A stretch of DNA of 64,000 bases, taken from assembly GCF_003584015.1 (NCBI RefSeq), contig NZ_QXFM01000100.1, positions 1 through 64,000 on the forward strand, given 5' to 3'. The position numbers and the translations under genes are program-made. The notes beneath the pieces are model-generated. The model was given only the letters and a program-made list of their open reading frames with translations, had not been told where the DNA came from and did no database searches. The DNA is from Aurantiacibacter xanthus. Lineage in GTDB: Bacteria > Pseudomonadota > Alphaproteobacteria > Sphingomonadales > Sphingomonadaceae. Of this stretch, positions 7,155 through 62,350 are shown in pieces (within the stretch, counting starts at the first letter, position 1; every line of letters begins with the position of its first letter).

Positions 7155-8498
7155 TTACTCAGCCACACGCCGCGTCGGATTGAGCCGCCGGAACAGCCGC
7201 GTCAGCGCCGCAGTAATCAGGCCATGTTCGCTCATCCACGCATGGTATTCGCGATACTTCGCATCTTCGCCCAGCAAATGCGCCTCTTCGGTCTTCGCGC
7301 GCCAATAGTAAATCGCGCTCACCAGCCCGAGAAACACCGTGTTGCGCACCGCATCGACCAGCGAATTGCTCGTCACCAGAAACGGCAGCACCGACAACCA
7401 CCAGAACGCATTTTTCGAAATGTACGCCGGATGGCGCGTGAAGCGGTAAGGCCCGTGAGTCAGCACGCCGCGATAGGTCAGGTTCGAGAAGCGAATGCCG
7501 AAAGCCACCGTCGCCCAGGCATAAACCGCTGTCAGGACAATCAGCCCGCAGGCCCAGACCCACAGCAGCGCCGTGTGCCCGGCAAACCAATGCCCCCAAC
7601 CCGCCGTGTTGTACTCATACTGGATCGCGCCGCCCGCGCCCATGAAGCCATAGACGAACGGCGGATAGCACAGCAGCGCGGCGAGCCAGCCCGCCAGAAA
7701 CGGATTGCCCGAACGGATATGCGCATCGAGCGGGCGCATCGTCAGCAGATAGCCCACGGTGCCGATCTGCACGTCGATCACGAACAGGAATTCGAACATC
7801 ACGAGCCCGAAGGCCACCGGATCGCGCACGGCCTCGCCGAGATTGGCCTCGACCACGTGGGCAAAGCCGAACGGCAGGATCGAGATCATGAAAGCCGAGA
7901 AGAACCCCTTGATCGCCCAGGCGCGCCAGTGCTTCTTCACCTCGGCCATGTCGCAGGCCTCGCGCCCGATCAGCAGCGCGCCGAAGTGCCAGGAATGGTC
8001 CCGCGGATTGACCATCACCCGATCCAGCATCACCACATAGGGCACCGACAGGATAAACATCGGCACGATGGCGGCGCCGATCACCTCCATCGCGAAGACG
8101 TATTGCCCGTCCCAATACCAGCGGCCGAGAAAGTAGACGAAGCCGATCACCGCCCAGGTCGCCCACAAGCCAGCAAGCTTGGCGACCGAAATGTCGATGG
8201 TCTCTTCGAGCGGACGCTTGTTGGACCAGTCGATCCCGGTCGAGGGGCGGCGGTGAACCTTGTCGACCACGACCGACCATATGGCCATGGCAAGGCCCGT
8301 CAGCACCATCGTCAACAGCGCGGCGCTGGGGCCGGAAAGCGGGCCACGGTCCGCGCCAATGCCCACGATTGGCCCAATGGTGGGCCAAGCCCGCGCAATC
8401 AGGATACAGCCGACCAGCGTGACGAGGCCGACCAGCCCGACGCCTGTCGAGACATCACTGGCAGGCCGATGGGCGGGCGACGTGGCGACTGTGCTCAT
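7155..8498 (-). CDS. Multipass membrane methyltransferase of the isoprenylcysteine carboxyl methyltransferase (ICMT) type
   Basis: A 447-residue protein with about ten hydrophobic segments. The C-terminal part carries the ICMT/PEMT-type SAM-binding signature: GPYRFTRHPAY near residue 375, followed by a hydrophobic helix and RAKTEEAHLLGEDAKYREY. The N-terminal half (about 250 residues, several membrane segments, conserved-looking RDHSWHFGALLIGREACDM) is an extension not found in short ICMT proteins. The substrate cannot be deduced; members of this fold methylate lipids, prenylcysteine or other membrane compounds. It is downstream of bamB on the same strand with a 64-base gap holding a small GGCGC/GCGCC hairpin, so co-transcription is uncertain. 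Confidence 0.8.
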   Translation of the reverse strand: MSTVATSPAHRPASDVSTGVGLVGLVTLVGCILIARAWPTIGPIVGIGADRGPLSGPSAALLTMVLTGLAMAIWSVVVDKVHRRPSTGIDWSNKRPLEETIDISVAKLAGLWATWAVIGFVYFLGRWYWDGQYVFAMEVIGAAIVPMFILSVPYVVMLDRVMVNPRDHSWHFGALLIGREACDMAEVKKHWRAWAIKGFFSAFMISILPFGFAHVVEANLGEAVRDPVAFGLVMFEFLFVIDVQIGTVGYLLTMRPLDAHIRSGNPFLAGWLAALLCYPPFVYGFMGAGGAIQYEYNTAGWGHWFAGHTALLWVWACGLIVLTAVYAWATVAFGIRFSNLTYRGVLTHGPYRFTRHPAYISKNAFWWLSVLPFLVTSNSLVDAVRNTVFLGLVSAIYYWRAKTEEAHLLGEDAKYREYHAWMSEHGLITAALTRLFRRLNPTRRVAE

Positions 8499-52709: not shown

Positions 52710-52811
52710 TCGCAGATCGTTGGCCTGCCCCCGCTCAGGGATCGCTTACGGATGGCGGGCGGGCCAATTTTCCAGGGCTGGCAAGGTTCCCTTAAGCATA
52801 GGTGCGACAGG

Positions 52812-53501
52812 ATGGCCCGCATGCGACAATGGCCCGCCCTGCTGATTCTCGCTTCCGCGCTGGCGGGCTGTTCGATGCTGCCAGACCGCTCTGGCCGCGA
52901 GACGAGCACGCCGCGCACCGCCGATTCGCGCGCCGTGGCTGCTCCCACCCGCACCGTCGACCGTGTCTGCATGGCAGATCTTGGCGGCAGCGGCGCACGC
53001 TTCACCCCCCTGCCCGACCGTTATGACGGCAATGGCTGCAGCAACCTCGGCACGGTTCAGCTGATTGCGCTGAGCAGCGACGATGGCGAACTGGCCCTCA
53101 GCAATCTCGGCGCGGTCACCTGCCCGGTCAGCCAGGCCTTTGCCGGCTGGGCACGTTTTGGCGTGGACCGCGCCGCGCGGCAGATCCTCGGCGCGAAGCT
53201 GGCGCGGATCGAAACCTACGGCAGCTACAATTGCCGCAATGTGGCCGGAAGCTCGCGCCGCAGCGCCCATGCCACGGCCTCCGCCATCGATATTTCAGGC
53301 TTCGTGCTTTCCGATGGACGGCGCATCTCGGTGCTTGACGACTGGGACGGCGGGTCAGCCGCCTATCGCCAGTTCCTGCGCACGGTTCAGGCCTCGGCCT
53401 GCCGCCGGTTCGGCACAGTACTCGGCCCCGACTACAACGCCGCGCACCGCAACCATTTCCACCTGGAAGGTGTCGCAGAAGGCAAGAGCTTCTGCCGCTA
53501 G
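52812..53501 (+). CDS. Extensin-like family lipoprotein
   Basis: A 229-residue protein with a lipoprotein signal (ALLILASALAGC, Cys about 15), a variable linker, then the extensin-like C-terminal domain: ETYGSYNCRNV, SAHATASAIDISGF and AHRNHFHLE. The His/Asp pattern in the last two is like that of zinc DD-peptidase-type folds, so a wall-related hydrolase is possible, but that is inference. ATG at 52812 is preceded by GGTGCGACAGG. It is divergent from serC, with about 185 bases between the starts. Confidence 0.83.
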   Translation: MARMRQWPALLILASALAGCSMLPDRSGRETSTPRTADSRAVAAPTRTVDRVCMADLGGSGARFTPLPDRYDGNGCSNLGTVQLIALSSDDGELALSNLGAVTCPVSQAFAGWARFGVDRAARQILGAKLARIETYGSYNCRNVAGSSRRSAHATASAIDISGFVLSDGRRISVLDDWDGGSAAYRQFLRTVQASACRRFGTVLGPDYNAAHRNHFHLEGVAEGKSFCR

Positions 53502-53593: not shown

Positions 53594-54301
53594 CTAGCCG
53601 GTGCGCCTTTCAAGCGGCATACGAAGCTGCGCCTCATGGTCATCGTGAGCGTCCCGCTGCCCATGTCCGCTGGCCGCAACGATATCGTTCTGCACGGCCT
53701 CCAGCCCTGCATCGAGCCGCATCCGCACGGCTTCGGCCGCATGGTGGGCTCCTAATTTGTCCATCATGTTGGCACGGTGAATTTCCACCGTGCGCGGGCT
53801 GATCTCCAGTTCCCGCGCGATCGCCTTGTTCGAGCAGCCTTCCGATAGCCAGTCGAGCACTTCGCGTTCGCGCCTGGACAGCATGCCGATCCGCCGCCGG
53901 GCGTCGATCAGCCGGCGGCGCGCCTCGGCATGGCGGCCCGCATCAGATTCGAGATGGGCGACCATCCGCGCCAGTTCTTCCGCAGTGAGCGGCAGCTCCA
54001 TGTAATCGAGAGCGCCGGCCTGGATCGCGGTGACGACTTCATCAACTTCCGGGTTCGGCTTGGCGGCGATAAGCGGCACGCAGATGCCCTGTTCCCCCAA
54101 CCGGTCGAGCAGGACTGTAACCCCAAAGTCCAGAATATCGTCGCAGGCGACGATGACCCCTCTCCTTGGCGGTCGGTCAAACATCTCGTCGAGGTCGGCA
54201 TAGACCTCTGCATGGAGCCCCAGCGAAAACGCCAGCCGCGCCTGTTCTGCCCTGGTGCGGCTTGAGCCGCCGACGATATGAAGTGTGATGCGCTGTTCCA
54301 T
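53594..54301 (-). CDS. LuxR/FixJ-type regulator with degenerate receiver domain
   Basis: A 235-residue protein. Residues 1-120 have the receiver-domain rhythm (ITLHIVGGSSRTRAEQAR, RGVIVACDDILDFG, VPLIAAKPNPEVDE, AGALDYMELPLTAEEL), but the residues needed for phosphorylation are replaced: the acidic pair is GG, the phospho-Asp position is Ala, Thr is Ala, Lys is Leu. Residues 150-215 are a LuxR helix-turn-helix (SRREREVLDWLSEGCSNKAIAREL). The start is ATG at 54301. It lies 189 bases downstream of the Anbu gene on the same strand and may control that cluster. Confidence 0.82.
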   Translation of the reverse strand: MEQRITLHIVGGSSRTRAEQARLAFSLGLHAEVYADLDEMFDRPPRRGVIVACDDILDFGVTVLLDRLGEQGICVPLIAAKPNPEVDEVVTAIQAGALDYMELPLTAEELARMVAHLESDAGRHAEARRRLIDARRRIGMLSRREREVLDWLSEGCSNKAIARELEISPRTVEIHRANMMDKLGAHHAAEAVRMRLDAGLEAVQNDIVAASGHGQRDAHDDHEAQLRMPLERRTG

Positions 54302-54490
54302 AACCAAGACGTAGCCCGTAACTTCGGCATCGCGCACTTCGTATTGCTACGGAATCAGTTAGATAGAAACCAATATTCACCCAAATTTCGCAGTTTTAGG
54401 TGGTTAATTTCCCCCCAAACCGGAGCTAAATAGGCCCGCTATCTAGCAACAATCCCCTAAGCACTTTGGCGAAGCGGGGCACAACTCAGG

Positions 54491-55246
54491 TCACGGGATA
54501 ATGCTTGGGCTATCCATTGAGTAGTCGGGCAGCGAATGAAACGCGCTCTTCAGCGCATCGCCCCAGCTGGACGAGATCGCCTCGAAGAACGGATCGCCCG
54601 CCTCGATACGGCGCTCCTGCAGCGGTTCGAACACGTCGCGTTCCAGCACCTGCAGATCGAGCGGCAGGCCGACCGAAAGATTCGCCTTGAGGGTGGAGTC
54701 CATGCTCACCATCAACAGCTTGACCGCGTCCTCGAAGCTCATCGTGCGGTCGTAGGCGCGCAGCAGGATCGGGCGGCCATACTTGGTCTCGCCGATCTGG
54801 AAGAACGGGGTATCGAAGCTGGCTTCGATGAAGTTGCCCTCGGGGTAGATCATGAACAGGCGCGGTTCCATGCCCTTGATCTGGCCCGCCAGGATCAGCG
54901 AGGCGGTGAACCGGCTCCCGCCGCTCGCGCCGTTCTGCTTCTGGGTGTCGCCGATGGTTTCGCGCAGCAGGTTGCCCAGCTCGATCGCGACCTGGAACAT
55001 GGTCGGCAGTTCGAGCAGGCTGTTCGAACGCTCCTCCGGCGCTTTCGAGCGTTCCTCCAGCTTGGAGATCACCGCCTGCGTGGTGGCCAGATTGCCCGCC
55101 GTCATGATCGAGATGATCCGCTCGCCCGGCACCGACCAGCTGTGCATCTTGCGAAACACCGAAATATTGTCGACGCCCGAGTTGGTGCGCGTGTCGCTCA
55201 TCAGGACCAGGCCCTTGTCGAGCACCATGCCAACGCAATATGTCAT
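54491..55246 (-). CDS. Anbu-type proteasome-like peptidase
   Basis: A 251-residue member of the Ntn-hydrolase family Anbu (ancestral beta subunit), a bacterial relative of HslV and the proteasome. It starts MTYCVGMVLDKGLVLMSDTR: the N-terminal Thr after Met removal would be the nucleophile, Asp and Lys of SDTRTNSG and SVFRKMHSW are the usual partners. The mid-section SRFTASLILAGQIKGMEPRLFMIYPEGN is typical. Start ATG with SD AAGGAAG. It is the last gene of the transglutaminase-ATP-grasp cluster. Proteolytic activity in this family is still debated. Confidence 0.92.
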   Translation of the reverse strand: MTYCVGMVLDKGLVLMSDTRTNSGVDNISVFRKMHSWSVPGERIISIMTAGNLATTQAVISKLEERSKAPEERSNSLLELPTMFQVAIELGNLLRETIGDTQKQNGASGGSRFTASLILAGQIKGMEPRLFMIYPEGNFIEASFDTPFFQIGETKYGRPILLRAYDRTMSFEDAVKLLMVSMDSTLKANLSVGLPLDLQVLERDVFEPLQERRIEAGDPFFEAISSSWGDALKSAFHSLPDYSMDSPSIIP

Positions 55247-55311
55247 CGATCGATCTTCCTTTGCCGGCGAGCCCGTTTGCGGGTCAGGCCGCGTTCCTCG
55301 TCCCTACGCCT

Positions 55312-56127
55312 CTATTGCTCGGCGCTGCGCTGTTCAACCGCGAGTTCGACATGGAAGTCTTCGGTCACGGCATCGAAGCTGACCCCGGTGACCGGCGCGG
55401 CATCGCGATAATCACGTCCCGTGGCCACGCGGACATAGCGCGGATCGGGGCTGATCCCGTTGGAAACGTCGAACCCGACCCAGCCGAGCGAGGGCACCCA
55501 GGCCTCGGCCCAGGCGTGCGTCGCCTCTTGCTCGATGCGGTCGTCCATCATCAGATAACCGCTGACATAGCGCGCCGGAATGTCGATCGCGCGCGCGGCC
55601 GCGATGAAGATATGCGCATGGTCCTGACACACCCCCTTGCCCGCCGCCGCCGCGGCTTCGGCCGTAGTGGCCGAATTGGTTGCGCCCGGCACATATTCCA
55701 CCGTTTCGAGGATGGCGGCGGAAAGGTTGTGCAGGGTGTCGACCATGCCCTCCTCGCTGCGTTCCACCCTGGCGATGATCTGCCGGATTTTCGGGCCGGG
55801 CCGCGTCAGGTCGGTGTACGAGAGGAAAGACCACAGCGGCAGGTGCCCGCAATGCAGGCCGACCACGCCCGCATGGTCCTGCGTCTCCACCGTCCCGCTG
55901 CATCCGACCACGACCTCGCGCGCGCCCTCGTCGACCGTGATCAGCGTGACGTGATTGTGGTTCTGGTCGTCGTAGACCAGCTCCTCGTGCGCGTTTTCAT
56001 AAACCATCTGCCAGTCGATGATCTTCTGGCCCTGCGTTTCCTTGGGCGTCAGCCGCAGGCGCTGGATCGCATAGCCCACTTCCTGAGCGAACCGGTAACG
56101 GGTGGTATGGCGGATCTGTAGTCGCAT
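55312..56127 (-). CDS. Transglutaminase-like protein
   Basis: A 271-residue transglutaminase/protease-fold protein with an N-terminal beta domain (MRLQIRHTTRYRFAQEVGYA) and the catalytic triad: Cys in GKGVCQDHAHIF near residue 166, His in EATHAWAEAWV, and the Asp of WVGFDVSNG. This bacterial transglutaminase subgroup is routinely co-encoded with alpha-E and ATP-grasp proteins. It likely cleaves or forms amide bonds in peptides. It lies 65 bases upstream of the Anbu gene and 20 downstream of the alpha-E gene. Confidence 0.9.
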   Translation of the reverse strand: MRLQIRHTTRYRFAQEVGYAIQRLRLTPKETQGQKIIDWQMVYENAHEELVYDDQNHNHVTLITVDEGAREVVVGCSGTVETQDHAGVVGLHCGHLPLWSFLSYTDLTRPGPKIRQIIARVERSEEGMVDTLHNLSAAILETVEYVPGATNSATTAEAAAAAGKGVCQDHAHIFIAAARAIDIPARYVSGYLMMDDRIEQEATHAWAEAWVPSLGWVGFDVSNGISPDPRYVRVATGRDYRDAAPVTGVSFDAVTEDFHVELAVEQRSAEQ

Positions 56128-56147
56128 GGTGGGCTTGCTCCGCTGGC

Positions 56148-57110
56148 TCAGGCGATGAAGCGGTAATCCTCCGCAATCGCGCTCGCGAGCCGGTTGTTGT
56201 CGGCGATGAAACCGAGCAGGAATTCGTGCAGGCCCTGATCGAAAATCGCCTCGACGGTGATTTCGGAAAGCTTCATGTCGGCCTCGCGCATGGTCTCGTG
56301 GACCTTGCCTTCGCGGCCGTGGAATTGCGCCAGATGGAACAGGTTTTCGCGCATGGCGTGATAGCAGAAGATCAGGCTGCGCGGGAACCGGTCGTCGAGG
56401 ATCAGGAAGTCGGCGATCGAGCGGATATCGCTCTTGCCCGCGTTAAGCCAGCGATAGGCCCGCTCCGCCGAGAGCGAGCGCAGCACATTGTCCCACTGCC
56501 CGGCATCGAGCGGGGTGCCGACATAGGACAGCGACGGCAGCAGCAGATAGTATTTCACATCGAGAATACGCGCGGTGTTGTCGGCGCGTTCGAGGAAGGT
56601 GCCGGCGCGGGCGAAGCTGTAGATCTCGTTGCGCAGCATCGAGCCGTGGGTGGAGCCGCGCACAATCGCGCTCTCGCGCCGGATCGCCATCAGCACCTGA
56701 TGCAGGCTGCCCGATTTCACCTGCTTCGAGAGCAGCTCGCGCAGGGTCATCCAGGCCTCGTTGATCGCCTCCCACACCTCGGCCGTGATCGCCGAGCGGC
56801 ACATCCGCGCATTCGAGCGCGCACGTTCGATCATCGACAGCACGCTTTCGGGGTTGTTCTTCGAGCGCAGCACGAAATCGCACACATGCGATCCCGAATA
56901 GTCCTCATGCTGGGCGAGATAGGCATCCTTCAGGCCCAGCGTGGTGAGCACCGAAGCCCATTCCTGGCTCGCCATCGCGGCCCCGCGGGTAAGCGCCATG
57001 CGCTGCCCCGCCGCCAGCAGACGCGCGATGTTCTCCGCGCGTTCGAGATAGCGATACATCCAGAAGATGCCGTTGGCCGTGCGGCCGAGGATATGCGCTC
57101 TGCCCGTCAT
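56148..57110 (-). CDS. Alpha-E domain protein (DUF403)
   Basis: A 320-residue all-helical protein of the alpha-E family. Recognisable sequences are ILGRTANGIFWMYRYLERAENIAR at the start (RYLERAEN), repeated RAGTFLERADNTARILD further along and LRSLSAERAYRW near residue 215. The two ER[AG][ED]N-like repeats are the family signature. Function is unknown; it is thought to work with the ATP-grasp enzyme. The start ATG at 57110 overlaps the ATP-grasp stop (TGATG). The frame upstream of 57110 is not used. Confidence 0.9.
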   Translation of the reverse strand: MTGRAHILGRTANGIFWMYRYLERAENIARLLAAGQRMALTRGAAMASQEWASVLTTLGLKDAYLAQHEDYSGSHVCDFVLRSKNNPESVLSMIERARSNARMCRSAITAEVWEAINEAWMTLRELLSKQVKSGSLHQVLMAIRRESAIVRGSTHGSMLRNEIYSFARAGTFLERADNTARILDVKYYLLLPSLSYVGTPLDAGQWDNVLRSLSAERAYRWLNAGKSDIRSIADFLILDDRFPRSLIFCYHAMRENLFHLAQFHGREGKVHETMREADMKLSEITVEAIFDQGLHEFLLGFIADNNRLASAIAEDYRFIA

Positions 57111-58534
57111 CAGTCGTCCAGCACCCAGCTGTCCTTGGTGCCGCCGCCCTGGCTGGAATTGACCACCAGCGATCCTTTCTTGAGCGCCACGCGGGTCAGC
57201 CCGCCCGGCGTGATATCGACCCCCGAAGGCGAGCACAGCACGAAGGGGCGCAGATCGACATGGCGCGGCGCCAGACCCTTGCGGGTGAGGATCGGGCAGG
57301 TCGACAGCGACAGCGTCGGCTGCGCGATATAGTTTTCCGGCTTGGCTTCGAGCTTGTGGCGGAAGGCGGCGATCTCCTTCTTCGAGGAGGTCGGGCCGAT
57401 CAGCATGCCATAGCCGCCCGAGCCGTGGACCTCCTTCACCACCAGCTCGGCGAGGTTATCCAGCACATATTTGAGCGCATCGGGATCGGCGCAGCGCCAT
57501 GTCTCGACATTGGGCAGCAGCGGCTTTTCCCCGGTGTAGAACTCGACGATCTCGGGCATGAACGAGTAGATCGCCTTGTCGTCGGCCACCCCGGTGCCCG
57601 GTGCATTGGCGATGGTGATATTGCCCGCGCGATAGACATCCATGATGCCCGGCACGCCCAGTACCGAATCCGGGTTGAAGGTAAGCGGATCGAGGAAATC
57701 GTCATCGACCCGGCGATAGAGCACGTCGACCGGCTGGAAGCCCGCCGTAGTGCGCATCTGCACCTTGCCGTCGACCACGCGCAGGTCGCTGCCCTCGACC
57801 AGCTCGGCCCCCATCTGGTCGGCGAGGAAGGCATGTTCGAAATAGGCCGAGTTGTAGATGCCCGGTGTCAGCACCGCGATCGAGGGTTTCCGGCCAGCCC
57901 CTTGCGGCGCGCAGGCCGCAAGGCTGGCCGCCAGCCGCGCCGGATAGTCCGACACCGGACGCACCGCGACCTGGCTGAACAGCTCGGGGAACATCGCCAT
58001 CATCGTTTCGCGGTTTTCGAGCATGTAGGAGACGCCCGAGGGCGTGCGCGCGTTGTCCTCCAGCACCATGAACTCATCCGGCCCGGTGCGGACCAGATCG
58101 ATGCCGACGATATGGGTATAGACCCCGCCCGGCGGGGTGAAGCCGACCATCTGCGGCAGCCAGGCATCGTTGTTGCGGAACAGACGCTCGGGCAGGCGGC
58201 CCGAGCGGATGATCTCCTGCCGGTGATAGAGATCGTGCATGAAGGCATTCAATGCCCGTACCCGCTGCTCGATCCCGCGCGAGAGCCGCCGCCATTCGCC
58301 GCCGGTGATGATGCGCGGCACCATGTCGAAGGGGATCAGCCGCTCCTCAGCCGCGTCCTCGCCATAGACGTTGAAGGTGATCCCGGTCTTGCGGAAGAAA
58401 GTCTCGGCCTCGAAGTTCTTCGAGTGGACCCAGCGCTCGTCCTGCTGCGAAAGCCATTCGTGATATCCGGCATAGGCCGGGCGCACCGTGCCGTCGGGTG
58501 CGAGCATCTCGTCAAAGCCGGTTTCGCTAGTCAT
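57110..58534 (-). CDS. Circularly permuted ATP-grasp protein
   Basis: A 474-residue enzyme of the circularly permuted ATP-grasp type 2 group (DUF404/DUF407). Features: EERLIPFDMVPRIITGGEW near residue 65, VLEDNARTPSGVSYMLENR near 165 (metal/substrate-binding Glu-Asn pattern), NAPGTGVADDKAIYSF near 285 and the C-terminal LVVKEVHGSGGYGMLIG (nucleotide-binding) near 365. Such enzymes are predicted amide or peptide-bond ligases with unknown substrates. ATG at 58534 with AAGGAG 4 bases upstream. Overlaps the alpha-E gene. Confidence 0.9.
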   Translation of the reverse strand: MTSETGFDEMLAPDGTVRPAYAGYHEWLSQQDERWVHSKNFEAETFFRKTGITFNVYGEDAAEERLIPFDMVPRIITGGEWRRLSRGIEQRVRALNAFMHDLYHRQEIIRSGRLPERLFRNNDAWLPQMVGFTPPGGVYTHIVGIDLVRTGPDEFMVLEDNARTPSGVSYMLENRETMMAMFPELFSQVAVRPVSDYPARLAASLAACAPQGAGRKPSIAVLTPGIYNSAYFEHAFLADQMGAELVEGSDLRVVDGKVQMRTTAGFQPVDVLYRRVDDDFLDPLTFNPDSVLGVPGIMDVYRAGNITIANAPGTGVADDKAIYSFMPEIVEFYTGEKPLLPNVETWRCADPDALKYVLDNLAELVVKEVHGSGGYGMLIGPTSSKKEIAAFRHKLEAKPENYIAQPTLSLSTCPILTRKGLAPRHVDLRPFVLCSPSGVDITPGGLTRVALKKGSLVVNSSQGGGTKDSWVLDD

Positions 58535-58615
58535 GAAACTCCTTTGTGCAATGCAGCATGACAGGAACTTTGCCTTCCGCCAAGAGGGCTTGCGACAGTT
58601 TTTTTGCAAGACCCG

Positions 58616-59404
58616 TCAGGCAAGTTCACGCCCCACGGCAAGGATCGCTTCGTTCGAATCGGCAAAGCCGAGATGGGTGCAGCGAACCGCCACCGCGCGG
58701 TCGCGTTCACCGGGGAGTCCGCGCGCCGCGCGCGGCGAGATCACCGCATCGCACGGGCTCCACAGCGCCACCGTTTCGACCGGCGGCTTGGCACGCACAT
58801 CGCAGGCAATCGGCGGCTCGTTGACCGGGTAGCCGGTGACCGCCTGATAGGTCCGCCACATGTGATTGGACCACGGCGTGTGGCTGAACGGCGAGCCCAT
58901 GGTGATGACCTTGGCCACCCGCTCGGGATGGAGCTTGGCCATCTCGCGGGCATAGATCCCGCCAAGGCTCCAGCCGACGAGATAGACCGGCTGACCATAG
59001 CGTTCGTGCACCTCGACGATGCGATCGGACAGCTGGCGGAAACGGTCTTCGCTTGGGCCCAGATTATAGCCGAGCTTCCAGCGCTTCACCGTGTGCCCGG
59101 CCCGCTCCAGCTCGCGCGCCATCCGGGCCATGCGGCGCGCATCGGCACCGAAGCCGGGAAACAGGATCACCACCCTGGGATGCTCGGCCTCGGGCAAGGT
59201 GCAGGGCTGGAACGCCCGCCCCGCCAGCCAGCGGGCGTAATAGGCCAGCTCGCCGGGAAGCAGTTTCAGCGGCGGGGTATGCGCGCCCTGCGGCTGCGGC
59301 GCGGTAAGCAATGCGAACCGGCGACGGGCGGCATCGAGCGGAGCCGCTGCGCTTTCGCGCAGACGGGTCAGATCGAACCGGGACCGTGGCAGCAATTCGA
59401 ACAT
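58616..59404 (-). CDS. Alpha/beta hydrolase upstream of the Anbu cluster
   Basis: A 262-residue alpha/beta hydrolase: FPGFGADARRMARM near residue 80 and the nucleophile elbow VGWSLGGIYAREM near residue 145, later TMGSPFSH and the His in CTHLGFADSNEA. It ends 81 bases before the ATP-grasp start and reads in the same direction, so it may be the first gene of the cluster or a neighbour. The gap has no clear terminator on this strand. Substrate unknown. Confidence 0.83.
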   Translation of the reverse strand: MFELLPRSRFDLTRLRESAAAPLDAARRRFALLTAPQPQGAHTPPLKLLPGELAYYARWLAGRAFQPCTLPEAEHPRVVILFPGFGADARRMARMARELERAGHTVKRWKLGYNLGPSEDRFRQLSDRIVEVHERYGQPVYLVGWSLGGIYAREMAKLHPERVAKVITMGSPFSHTPWSNHMWRTYQAVTGYPVNEPPIACDVRAKPPVETVALWSPCDAVISPRAARGLPGERDRAVAVRCTHLGFADSNEAILAVGRELA

Positions 59405-59470: not shown

Positions 59471-59998
59471 CTAGCTGCAGTCGCCCACGCGCGTGCCGGT
59501 TACGCGCATATGCATCTTGGCGGTGCCAACCTGTGGGATCGCCTGCTCGAAGCGCGCTTCCATCTGCACATTGTCGCCGCCCACGGTGCCTTCGAAATTC
59601 ACCGTGCCATTCAGCCCCTCGGCGTCCTTGCACTGCATCGTGGCCGTGAAGCTGTTGCCCGACTGCTTGAAATCGCTGGCGGTGCAGTTGCTTTGGTTCA
59701 TCTCGCTGATCCACTCCTCGGGAGTGGAATCCTTGGTCACACAGGTCAGCGAGGGCTCCTTCGCGCCATCGGCAAAGGCGCGTTCGGCCATGGATTTCAC
59801 ATCGGCCGGCAGCCCCGGCAGATCGAATTCCACCAGCTCTACCGTGGAGCTGTATTGCCCGGCGGTCAGCGTGAGGTCGCCCGCACCCACATCATCCGCC
59901 GACAGCGCCGCGTCCTTCGCGTCCTCGTCTTTCGAGCTGCCACAGGCGGCGAGCGTGAGCGCAGCAGCGGCAACAGAGAGGATCAGGCGAACTTTCAT
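59471..59998 (-). CDS. DUF3617 lipoprotein
   Basis: A 175-residue lipoprotein with the signal LSVAAAALTLAAC (Cys near 18), an acidic linker (SSKDEDAKDAAL) and a DUF3617 domain with paired Cys residues (LTCVTKDSTPEEW, QSNCTASDF, ATMQCKDAEG). The domain is common and uncharacterised in sphingomonads. ATG at 59998 has AAGGAAC upstream; the frame opens 15 codons further. Confidence 0.84.
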   Translation of the reverse strand: MKVRLILSVAAAALTLAACGSSKDEDAKDAALSADDVGAGDLTLTAGQYSSTVELVEFDLPGLPADVKSMAERAFADGAKEPSLTCVTKDSTPEEWISEMNQSNCTASDFKQSGNSFTATMQCKDAEGLNGTVNFEGTVGGDNVQMEARFEQAIPQVGTAKMHMRVTGTRVGDCS

Positions 59999-60160: not shown

Positions 60161-62350
60161 ATGGCAGAACTGGTGATCCGCAGGGGGCTGGAAGAGCCCG
60201 ACACGTCCGGTGCATTCGTGCCCCACAGGCCCGCACGGCCCGAGAAGATGGCGGACAGCAAACCGTTCAAGCTGGTGTCGGAATACGAGCCCGCCGGCGA
60301 CCAGCCGACCGCCATCGCCGACCTCGTGGCCGCCGCCGAGGACGGCGATCAGACGCAGGTGCTGCTCGGCGTCACCGGCTCGGGAAAAACCTTCACCATG
60401 GCCAAGGTGATCGAGACCCTGCAGCGCCCCGCCCTGATCCTCGCGCCGAACAAGATCCTCGCCGCGCAGCTCTATGGCGAATTCAAGAGCTTCTTTCCCG
60501 ACAACGCGGTCGAGTACTTTGTGTCGTATTACGACTATTACCAGCCCGAGGCCTATGTCCCGCGCTCGGATACCTATATCGAGAAGGAAAGCTCGGTGAA
60601 CGAGGCAATCGACCGGATGCGCCACTCGGCCACCCGATGCTTGCTCGAACGCGACGACGTGCTGATCGTGGCCTCGGTGAGCTGCCTTTACGGTATCGGC
60701 TCGGTCGAGACCTATTCGGCGATGATCTTCGACCTCAAGCAAGGCGACAGCGTCGACCAGCGCGAACTGATCCGCAAGCTGGTCGCCCTGCAATACAAGC
60801 GCAACGATGCCGCCTTCGCGCGCGGCAACTTCCGGGTGCGCGGCGACAATCTCGAACTGCACCCGAGCCACCTTGAGGACACCGCCTGGCGCATCAGCTT
60901 CTTCGGCGACGAGATCGAGGAAATCGCCGAGTTCGACCCGCTCACCGGCAAGAAGGGCGCGGCGCTCGACAAGGTGCGGGTCTATGCCAACAGCCACTAT
61001 GTGACGCCCGGCCCGACGATGAAGCAGGCCGCAGCGGCCATCAAATTCGAGCTGGCACACCGGCTGGAGGAACTGAACGCCGAGGGCAAATTGCTGGAAG
61101 CCCAACGGCTTGAGCAGCGCACCAACTTCGATCTCGAGATGATCGCGGCGACCGGCAGCTGCGCTGGGATCGAGAACTACAGCCGCTTCCTCACCGGCCG
61201 CCTGCCGGGTGAGCCGCCGCCGACCTTGTTCGAATATCTGCCTGAGAACGCGCTGCTGTTCGTCGACGAAAGCCACCAGACGATCCCGCAGATCGGCGCG
61301 ATGGCGCGCGGCGACCACCGCCGCAAGCTGACATTGGCCGAATACGGCTTTCGCCTGCCGAGCTGCATCGACAACCGCCCCTTGCGCTTCAACGAATGGG
61401 ACGCGATGCGCCCGCAGACGGTCGCCGTCTCCGCCACGCCCGGCAACTGGGAGATGGAGGCGACCGGCGGTGTCTTCGCCGAACAGGTGATCCGCCCCAC
61501 CGGCCTGATCGACCCGCCGGTGGAAATCCGCCCGACCGAGGATCAGGTGCAGGACTGCATCGCCGAGGCCAAGGACGCCGCCGCGCGCGGCTACCGCACG
61601 CTGGTCACCACGCTGACCAAGCGCATGGCCGAAGACCTCACCGAGTTCATGCACGAACAGGGCGTGCGCGTGCGCTACATGCATTCGGATGTGGAGACGC
61701 TCGAACGCATCGAGCTGATCCGCGACCTGCGCATGGGGGTCTACGATGTGTTGATCGGCATCAACCTGCTGCGCGAGGGGCTTGATATCCCCGAGTGCGG
61801 CCTGGTGTGCATTCTCGATGCCGACAAGGAGGGGTTCCTGCGCAGCGAGACCTCGCTGATCCAGACCATCGGCCGCGCCGCGCGCAACGTGGATGGCAAG
61901 GTGATCCTCTATGCCGACCGCGTGACCGGCAGCATGGAGCGCGCGATGGCGGAGACCGACCGCCGCCGCGAAAAGCAGCGCGCCTACAACGAGGAGCACG
62001 GCATCACCCCGCAGACGATCAAGCGCGAGATCGCCGACATCGTCGCGCATACCGCGGCGAAGGACGGGGTGCTGGTCGAGATCGAGGCCGAGGACGGTCG
62101 CAACAACCTCGTGGGCCACAACCTGCGCGCCTATATCGGCGAGCTGGAAAAGAAGATGCGCGACGCGGCGGCGAACCTCGAATTCGAGGAAGCCGGGAGA
62201 TTGCGCGACGAAATCCGGCGGCTGGAGGCGGACGAGCTGGGCCTGCCTGACGATCAGAAGAAAGCGCCGATGGTGGGCCGTTCGAACGAAGGCCGACCGG
62301 GGACGCGCAAGACGCGGTATGGGAAGGTGCAGAAGAAGTGGGGGAAGTGA
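60161..62350 (+). CDS. uvrB: Excinuclease ABC subunit B
   Basis: The damage-verification helicase of nucleotide excision repair. The 729-residue protein has Walker [15 protein letters not shown] near residue 70, the beta-hairpin sequence [22 protein letters not shown] near residue 125, Walker B VDESHQT, helicase motifs [13 protein letters not shown] and [13 protein letters not shown], and the C-terminal UVR motif [18 protein letters not shown]-like ([18 protein letters not shown]). The N-terminus has about 30 residues ([18 protein letters not shown]) before the domain. A 9-base hairpin follows the stop. Confidence 0.97.

Follow-up and report, generated by a model that had tools for sequence, protein, structure and literature searches.

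Does the row of genes around Anbu in Aurantiacibacter xanthus encode one obligatory system, or parts that can be kept and lost separately? Published views of Anbu, a proteasome relative, conflict, as it is regarded either as part of a peptide-synthesis system or as a protein-degrading particle; the proposal of peptide synthesis for this gene set is reportedly that of Iyer et al. 2009. The window, a stretch of 64,000 nucleotides (positions 1 to 64,000 of contig NZ_QXFM01000100.1), contains a row of six genes on the minus strand between 53594 and 59404. Comparison of this row with related genomes revealed that Anbu and a ligase block, made up of an ATP-grasp ligase, an Alpha-E protein and a transglutaminase-like protein, are separable both ways, each being losable while the other is kept. 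The reading that we favour, at a little better than even confidence, is one of two separable parts, the ligase block and Anbu, with a hydrolase as bystander and a FixJ-like regulator as clade-specific companion. The new point is the two-way separability, which was not found stated in the searched literature, many journals lying outside the coverage of that search; the operon itself is known, and occurs here with the clade-specific regulator and the bystander hydrolase. The six genes are:

58616-59404, minus strand: alpha/beta hydrolase, syntenic neighbour (Pfam Abhydrolase_1, 3.4e-10)
57110-58534, minus strand: circularly permuted ATP-grasp ligase (Pfam CP_ATPgrasp_2, 1e-166)
56148-57110, minus strand: Alpha-E protein (Pfam Alpha-E, 3e-83)
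55312-56127, minus strand: transglutaminase-like protein (Transglut_core 1e-23, Bact_transglu_N 1e-18)
54491-55246, minus strand: Anbu, Anbu-1 type (Pfam Proteasome, 8e-11)
53594-54301, minus strand: FixJ-like regulator, with a receiver that is likely degenerate and a GerE/LuxR DNA-binding domain (GerE 6e-23)

The positions and names of these genes, supported by Pfam and for Anbu by structure matches, agree with a preliminary description of the locus. The close packing of the middle genes that it reported was also confirmed: the ATP-grasp and Alpha-E genes overlap by 1 base (TGATG), 20 bp separate Alpha-E from the transglutaminase gene and 65 bp separate the latter from Anbu. The outer spacings are 81 bp between hydrolase and ATP-grasp and 189 bp between Anbu and the regulator. 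Since the same order recurs in many species, the six-gene order is not due to chance. The genes at 54491-58534 are the standard, already published Anbu operon, formed by the same four gene families in Yersinia bercovieri and others (PMC6376114, PMC5666114), so that the co-occurrence of the four families was rightly described as known in bacteria. In common with that operon the catalytic residues are intact, and the window adds the clade-specific regulator downstream and the syntenic hydrolase upstream.

Separate loss of Anbu and the ligase block

The comparison was made using two samples. An order-wide sample of 147 genomes contained Anbu in 51 at E<=0.001, and 50 genome stretches were compared, 47 of them around Anbu matches. 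A family sample of 397 genomes was searched using thresholds of E<=1e-40 for Anbu (318 genomes), E<=1e-55 for the hydrolase (161 genomes) and E<=1.2e-44 for the regulator orthologue (136 genomes among the matches listed). All four core genes were present in 41 of the 47 fetched Anbu loci, with three in one locus at a contig end and Anbu only in five, of which four were weak matches. The loci L077-L080 were considered as Anbu loci and not used as evidence, having 26-35% identity and no core genes detected nearby; they may encode other proteasome-like proteins.

In the deletions seen at the locus of the window the ligase block was lost as one unit. It is gone from L083 and L084 (genus g107) and from L085 (g4), all of which keep Anbu and the regulator, and a search of the corresponding genomes (G299, G363, G339) gave no ATP-grasp match at E<=0.001. 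The ATP-grasp ligase was then sought at E<=1e-20 in 80 of the 318 Anbu-positive genomes, 21 chosen from g24, g107 and g4 and 59 taken one per genus. A match was obtained in 72 of the 80, leaving eight genomes without one: G135, G245 and G330 (g24), G299 and G363 (g107), G339 (g4), G188 (g98) and G202 (g112). Seven of these are 97-100% complete, and the ligase was absent from 2 of the 59 genomes of the one-per-genus subset. The three genera g107, g4 and g24 also include sister species that keep it.

The opposite loss was observed among the 79 Anbu-negative genomes, 24 of which contained a stand-alone ATP-grasp at the stricter cut-off of E<=1e-100 (six of the 24 are less than 95% complete). Inspection of ten of their ATP-grasp loci revealed the whole ligase block in nine and ATP-grasp with Alpha-E in one, with no Anbu at E<=0.001 in any of the ten. 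Both outcomes occur beside one and the same neighbour, a tRNA-protein transferase gene identified by ATE_N/ATE_C in L073 (10330-11088) and assigned by similarity elsewhere. The full set lies beside this gene in L074, Anbu alone in L073, L111 and L112, and the ligase block without Anbu in L113 and L121, as well as in L118 at a distance of 3.4 kb. The transferase gene was convergent with Anbu wherever Anbu was present.

In the genomes lacking the ligase Anbu probably still works, judging from its sequence. All eight proteins retain Thr1, Asp17 and Lys32, and the pairwise ratio of nonsynonymous to synonymous substitution rates (dN/dS) was 0.11 for the g107 pair, while the three g24 genes gave 0.14-0.30 with one another, compared to 0.02-0.20 for ligase-carrying pairs and 0.10-0.26 for mixed pairs.

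These losses bear on the closed cycle suggested in the preliminary description, in which the four genes form one obligatory unit for a tag or peptide that is added by ATP-grasp and Alpha-E, transferred by the transglutaminase and removed by Anbu. The association that speaks for such a cycle is strong, with a fixed gene order, all four genes in 41 of 47 loci and the ligase in 72 of 80 genomes, but its obligatory character is weakened by Anbu persisting without the ligase in g107, g4 and g24 beside sister species that have it, and in g98 and g112, as well as by the ligase block being retained without Anbu. We regard the closed cycle as distinctly unlikely.

The same Anbu-only genomes, from five sampled genera, would fit Anbu as a general protein-degradation particle that shares an operon with the ligase block by happenstance, the view held in PMC5666114, where the binding of proteasome inhibitors to Anbu is reported. 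Against this, Anbu is accompanied by the ligase far more often than not, and published assays with standard peptide substrates (PMC6376114) gave no peptidase activity. This explanation is unlikely, though less so than the closed cycle.

Core proteins and the link to nitrogen

The Anbu protein of the window matched five solved Anbu sequences (5LOY, 5NYJ, 5NYF, 5NYW and 5LOX, one of them designed), with E values down to 4e-82. Its nucleophile threonine directly follows the initiator methionine (MTYCVG...), without a propeptide, and all three of the catalytic residues named as Thr1, Asp17 and Lys32(33) (PMC6376114) are present. Among the matches listed, T1 and D17 occur in 150 of 150 aligned sequences and K32 in 147, the remaining three having gaps. 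The S1 pocket is Anbu-1-like by sequence: the published residues T20, F30, T48, L52 and S55 (PMC5666114) correspond to T, F, T, L and T, and the serine-to-threonine exchange at the last site is shared by 145 of the 150 matches listed. The ATP-grasp ligase matched the solved 3N6X, a 'putative glutathionylspermidine synthase', at E 2e-193, and the transglutaminase residues C167, H204 and D220 were invariant across 139 aligned sequences. A search with Alpha-E gave no solved relative at E<=0.1.

Several known systems share parts of this set. The four-gene cluster PP_2685-2688 of P. putida encodes a proteasome-beta-like and a transglutaminase protein besides two called hypothetical, is induced by nitrogen limitation and is said to be probably under NtrB/NtrC (PMC7801951). 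Under nitrogen limitation PP_2686-2688 were up 11-15-fold in the first data column of that source, which is taken as the wild type, while the proteasome-beta-like PP_2685 stood at 1.12 in that column, in favour of separable parts. An NtrC/sigma54-dependent transglutaminase-like cluster is reported in Burkholderia (PMC5491218), and in marine metagenomes Alpha-E and circularly permuted ATP-grasp domains associate with urea-metabolism domains (PMC3597751). Two further papers, PMC10274813 and PMC9100107, deal with other matters than this operon, and no mention of it was found in PMC8665760. The RloABC and RimBK systems also couple a peptidase with an ATP-grasp protein, RloABC having a transglutaminase-like protein in addition, although their peptidase is retropepsin-like, their ATP-grasp is a different one and the transglutaminase is membrane-bound and inactive (PMC12239564). 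The genome of A. xanthus itself contains, on contig C9 (L072, 11210-17975), a row of a transglutaminase-DUF2126 protein, a fused ATP-grasp/Alpha-E protein and a transglutaminase. This system has the ligase, Alpha-E and transglutaminase families in common with the window, and differs in that ATP-grasp and Alpha-E are fused and Anbu is missing from the row.

A mechanism consistent with these families can be outlined. The ATP-grasp ligase, with Alpha-E as partner, would activate a carboxylate as an acyl phosphate and then join it to an amine, and the transglutaminase-like enzyme would open or transfer the resulting gamma-glutamyl or amide bonds, so that, where nitrogen is limiting, the block could serve nitrogen or amide economy. 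Anbu would be a threonine-nucleophile peptidase with peptide substrates of its own, accompanying the block often and not obligatorily. The regulator would probably not be under ordinary phosphorylation and would have its own promoter as target in part of the clade, with the operon as a possible further target. Tentatively, and at somewhat under an even chance, these steps combine into a loose partnership, in which an Anbu peptidase that acts autonomously is paired with a distinct ligase block for nitrogen economy, and to which one clade has added a self-controlling FixJ-like regulator that is probably released from ordinary phosphorylation. Under such a partnership each half would work without the other, because either half is lost within one family, even beside the same neighbour gene. 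Species naturally lacking one half are ready-made test cases showing which half to study alone, and the natural half-losses suggest seeking Anbu substrates that are not made by the linked ligase.

The hydrolase and the FixJ-like regulator

The preliminary description had the hydrolase and the regulator extend the core set. Comparison of neighbourhoods across relatives confirmed that both linkages recur within one family, as clade-wide synteny, with the hydrolase adjoining the core in 24 of the 47 fetched Anbu loci and the regulator in 23; it also revealed that the hydrolase is independent of the core and the regulator partly so. Two flanking genes serve for comparison:

60161-62350, plus strand: uvrB, divergent syntenic flank (Pfam; position conserved)
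52752-53501, plus strand: extensin-like C-terminal domain protein, convergent syntenic flank (Pfam Extensin-like_C 2e-54; position conserved)

The hydrolase might be a functional member of the pathway, as an esterase or amidase. Its catalytic triad (S146, D219, H244) is present and invariant in 106 sequences, 130 of 150 hydrolase rows among the matches listed lie upstream of Anbu, and in L083, near 8323-8336, the hydrolase stop codon has come to touch the Anbu start after loss of the ligase block. However, uvrB and the extensin-like gene were each detected in 23 of the 24 loci in which the hydrolase adjoins the core; as they are equally syntenic, adjacency alone is no proof of shared function. 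In the fetched loci and the family sample the hydrolase did not follow the gain and loss of the core. The hydrolase stays where the core is deleted together with the regulator (L081, L095, and L091/L092, in which ATP-grasp and Anbu lie elsewhere in the genome) or where the whole core is gone and the regulator is kept (L086 and L087, short contigs of incomplete genomes). Conversely, it was not detected in L158 and L159, which keep core and regulator, and in 23 of the 47 fetched Anbu loci it does not adjoin the core. Since the hydrolase stays after core deletion and the core is kept where the hydrolase was not detected, the two are independent; the hydrolase is probably a syntenic bystander, and its membership of the pathway is improbable.

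The regulator is tied to Anbu more closely than the hydrolase is, yet separable from it in both directions. Among the matches listed, 133 of the 136 regulator-carrying genomes also contain Anbu, and in 128 the regulator directly follows it. In the other five, the two genes lie on different contigs (G234, G369) or 500 kb apart (G176), or fall below the matches listed (G225, G411). Among named relatives, those nearest to the window regulator are at 83% in an assembly of Erythrobacter sp. and at 81% in Aurantiacibacter suaedae, which would place the window in the Erythrobacter group of the Sphingomonadales.

The regulator matched the FixJ model at 5e-34, with 118 bits compared to a cut-off of 255. 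In its AlphaFold model (mean pLDDT 81.7) strands and helices alternate as in a receiver and are followed by a DNA-binding domain, and the best Foldseek matches were FixJ (Bradyrhizobium, 5XSO/5XT2; whole-chain E 1e-12, TM-score 0.45-0.53 by query length), which shares the receiver and the LuxR-type DNA-binding domain. The start is more likely ATG 54301 than the listed GTG 54337, and residue numbers here count from one codon before this ATG. Differences from FixJ lie in the residues for phosphorylation. The conserved lysine occurs in none of 31 aligned orthologues, its column holding leucine in 30 and threonine in one. Of the acidic pair that follows strand one, column 13 is acidic in none of the 31 and column 14 is aspartate in nine, with serine in the window. 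At or near the phospho-acceptor position the aspartate is not invariant, column 55 being aspartate in 25 of 31, window included, and glutamate, glutamine, glycine or serine in six; a separate alignment of 33 regulators gave aspartate there in 27. The predicted third strand (50-53) ends at Ala53, and HMMER pairs D56 with the phospho-aspartate of FixJ. The term pseudo-receiver used in the preliminary description therefore holds for the missing lysine and the incomplete acidic pair and less well for the aspartate: the receiver is likely degenerate, and ordinary phospho-switching is unlikely because of the former two and not excluded because an aspartate near the phospho-acceptor position is mostly kept. 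In paralogues of the regulator from the same and related genomes the lysine is absent in nine of ten (L215-L224 except L219), mostly with tryptophan in its place, which may point to a broader family, within this group, of FixJ-like regulators that lack the usual residues of the phospho-switch. One genome, G241, has six regulator matches spread over several contigs.

A candidate target of the regulator lies before its own gene:

54337-54354, no strand: candidate self-regulatory site, a palindrome TTCCGTA-N4-TACGGAA matched with 2 mismatches and lying 36-53 bp before the regulator ATG

This palindrome, near -50 of the regulator, scored at least 11 of 14 in 33 of 112 distinct upstream regions, 27 of them at 50-59 bp, compared to 1.2% of resampled sequence. 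Upstream of other genes this score was reached in 2 of 101 regions for ATP-grasp, 0 of 99 for the hydrolase, 1 of 107 for Anbu, 0 of 93 for uvrB and 1 of 97 for the extensin-like gene. Its consensus was picked by eye from an alignment, the genomes of which are no independent test. A scan of 17 genomes with at most one mismatch gave four places in four genomes, all just before the regulator gene, while the reversed pattern, used as a control, occurred at 11 places in seven of the genomes; as the control is commoner, only the location (4/4) counts. In the window, two sites were found at up to three mismatches against 0.55 expected, and at least two sites occurred in 9 of 100 shuffles. The palindrome was absent from the deletion loci L083-L089 (scores 8-9). 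The word ATCCGGA upstream of the regulator (35 of 112 against 4.2 expected) ranks ahead of the palindrome's own words; TCCGGA-like words upstream of the regulator were also seen in relatives, as were TACCTAG-like words after Anbu.

That the palindrome precedes the gene of the regulator itself, and seldom that of ATP-grasp, makes self-regulation likely for part of the clade; it leaves operon control unproven. That the regulator is a dedicated controller of the operon would agree with its presence beside Anbu in the 128 genomes above and with the joint absence of core and regulator from L081, L095, L091 and L092. It agrees less with the 33 of 112 high scores before the regulator against 2 of 101 before ATP-grasp, with the regulator remaining without the core in L086, L087 and L088 (the last having lost the hydrolase also), with the core and hydrolase remaining without the regulator in L037 and L097-L101, and with the 500 kb in G176. 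In addition, the ATP-grasp gene has a recurrent upstream word of its own, TGCAGCA, found in 32 of 101 regions against 6.1 expected besides words resembling ribosome-binding sites, which is a possible site of an operon regulator. A dedicated controller is thus doubtful. TGCAGCA/TGCTGCA was seen upstream of ATP-grasp in the window (58535-58615) and in relatives, several of which carry TGCA...TGCA repeats.

The favoured reading of separable parts with a bystander and a companion has to be set against several observations that weigh against it. The co-occurrence of ligase and Anbu is strong (Fisher 3e-15, with kinship not corrected for), and because of this a shared pathway is still likely. Among the genomes lacking the ligase, G363 is only 73% complete, and Alpha-E and the transglutaminase were searched at the locus only. 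L083 and L084 retain spacers of different length, so that the block was perhaps lost separately or the junction eroded; the time spent without it, and hence the meaning of the dN/dS values, is uncertain. For the regulator, the kept aspartate at column 55 points the same way, as does a palindrome score below 11 in 79 of the 112 upstream regions. In predicted sigma54 regulons a proteasome-type protease appears under the designation COG3484, which we take to be Anbu. This listing (PMC12316311), together with induction of PP_2685 under nitrogen limitation in other studies cited in PMC7801951, suggests that Anbu may follow the block. Of the three columns for PP_2685 in PMC7801951 itself, the second and third read 4.81 and 1.45, compared to 1.12 in the first, and these two count against the separation; the inactivity of Anbu towards standard peptide substrates (PMC6376114) does not favour an autonomous peptidase.

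Flanking gene and minor observations

Scans for sigma70 promoters (0 found, 1.5 expected from shuffles) and for terminators (one terminator-like site, 4.0 expected) gave numbers not above those of shuffled sequence. One further syntenic gene flanks the row:

59471-59998, minus strand: DUF3617 gene, syntenic flank outside the system (Pfam DUF3617 6e-16; start ATG 59998 from the reading frame)

More than one match to this gene was present in the relatives L033, L054, L055, L087, L099 and L102, and the gene diverges fast, with a median identity of 30% among relatives.

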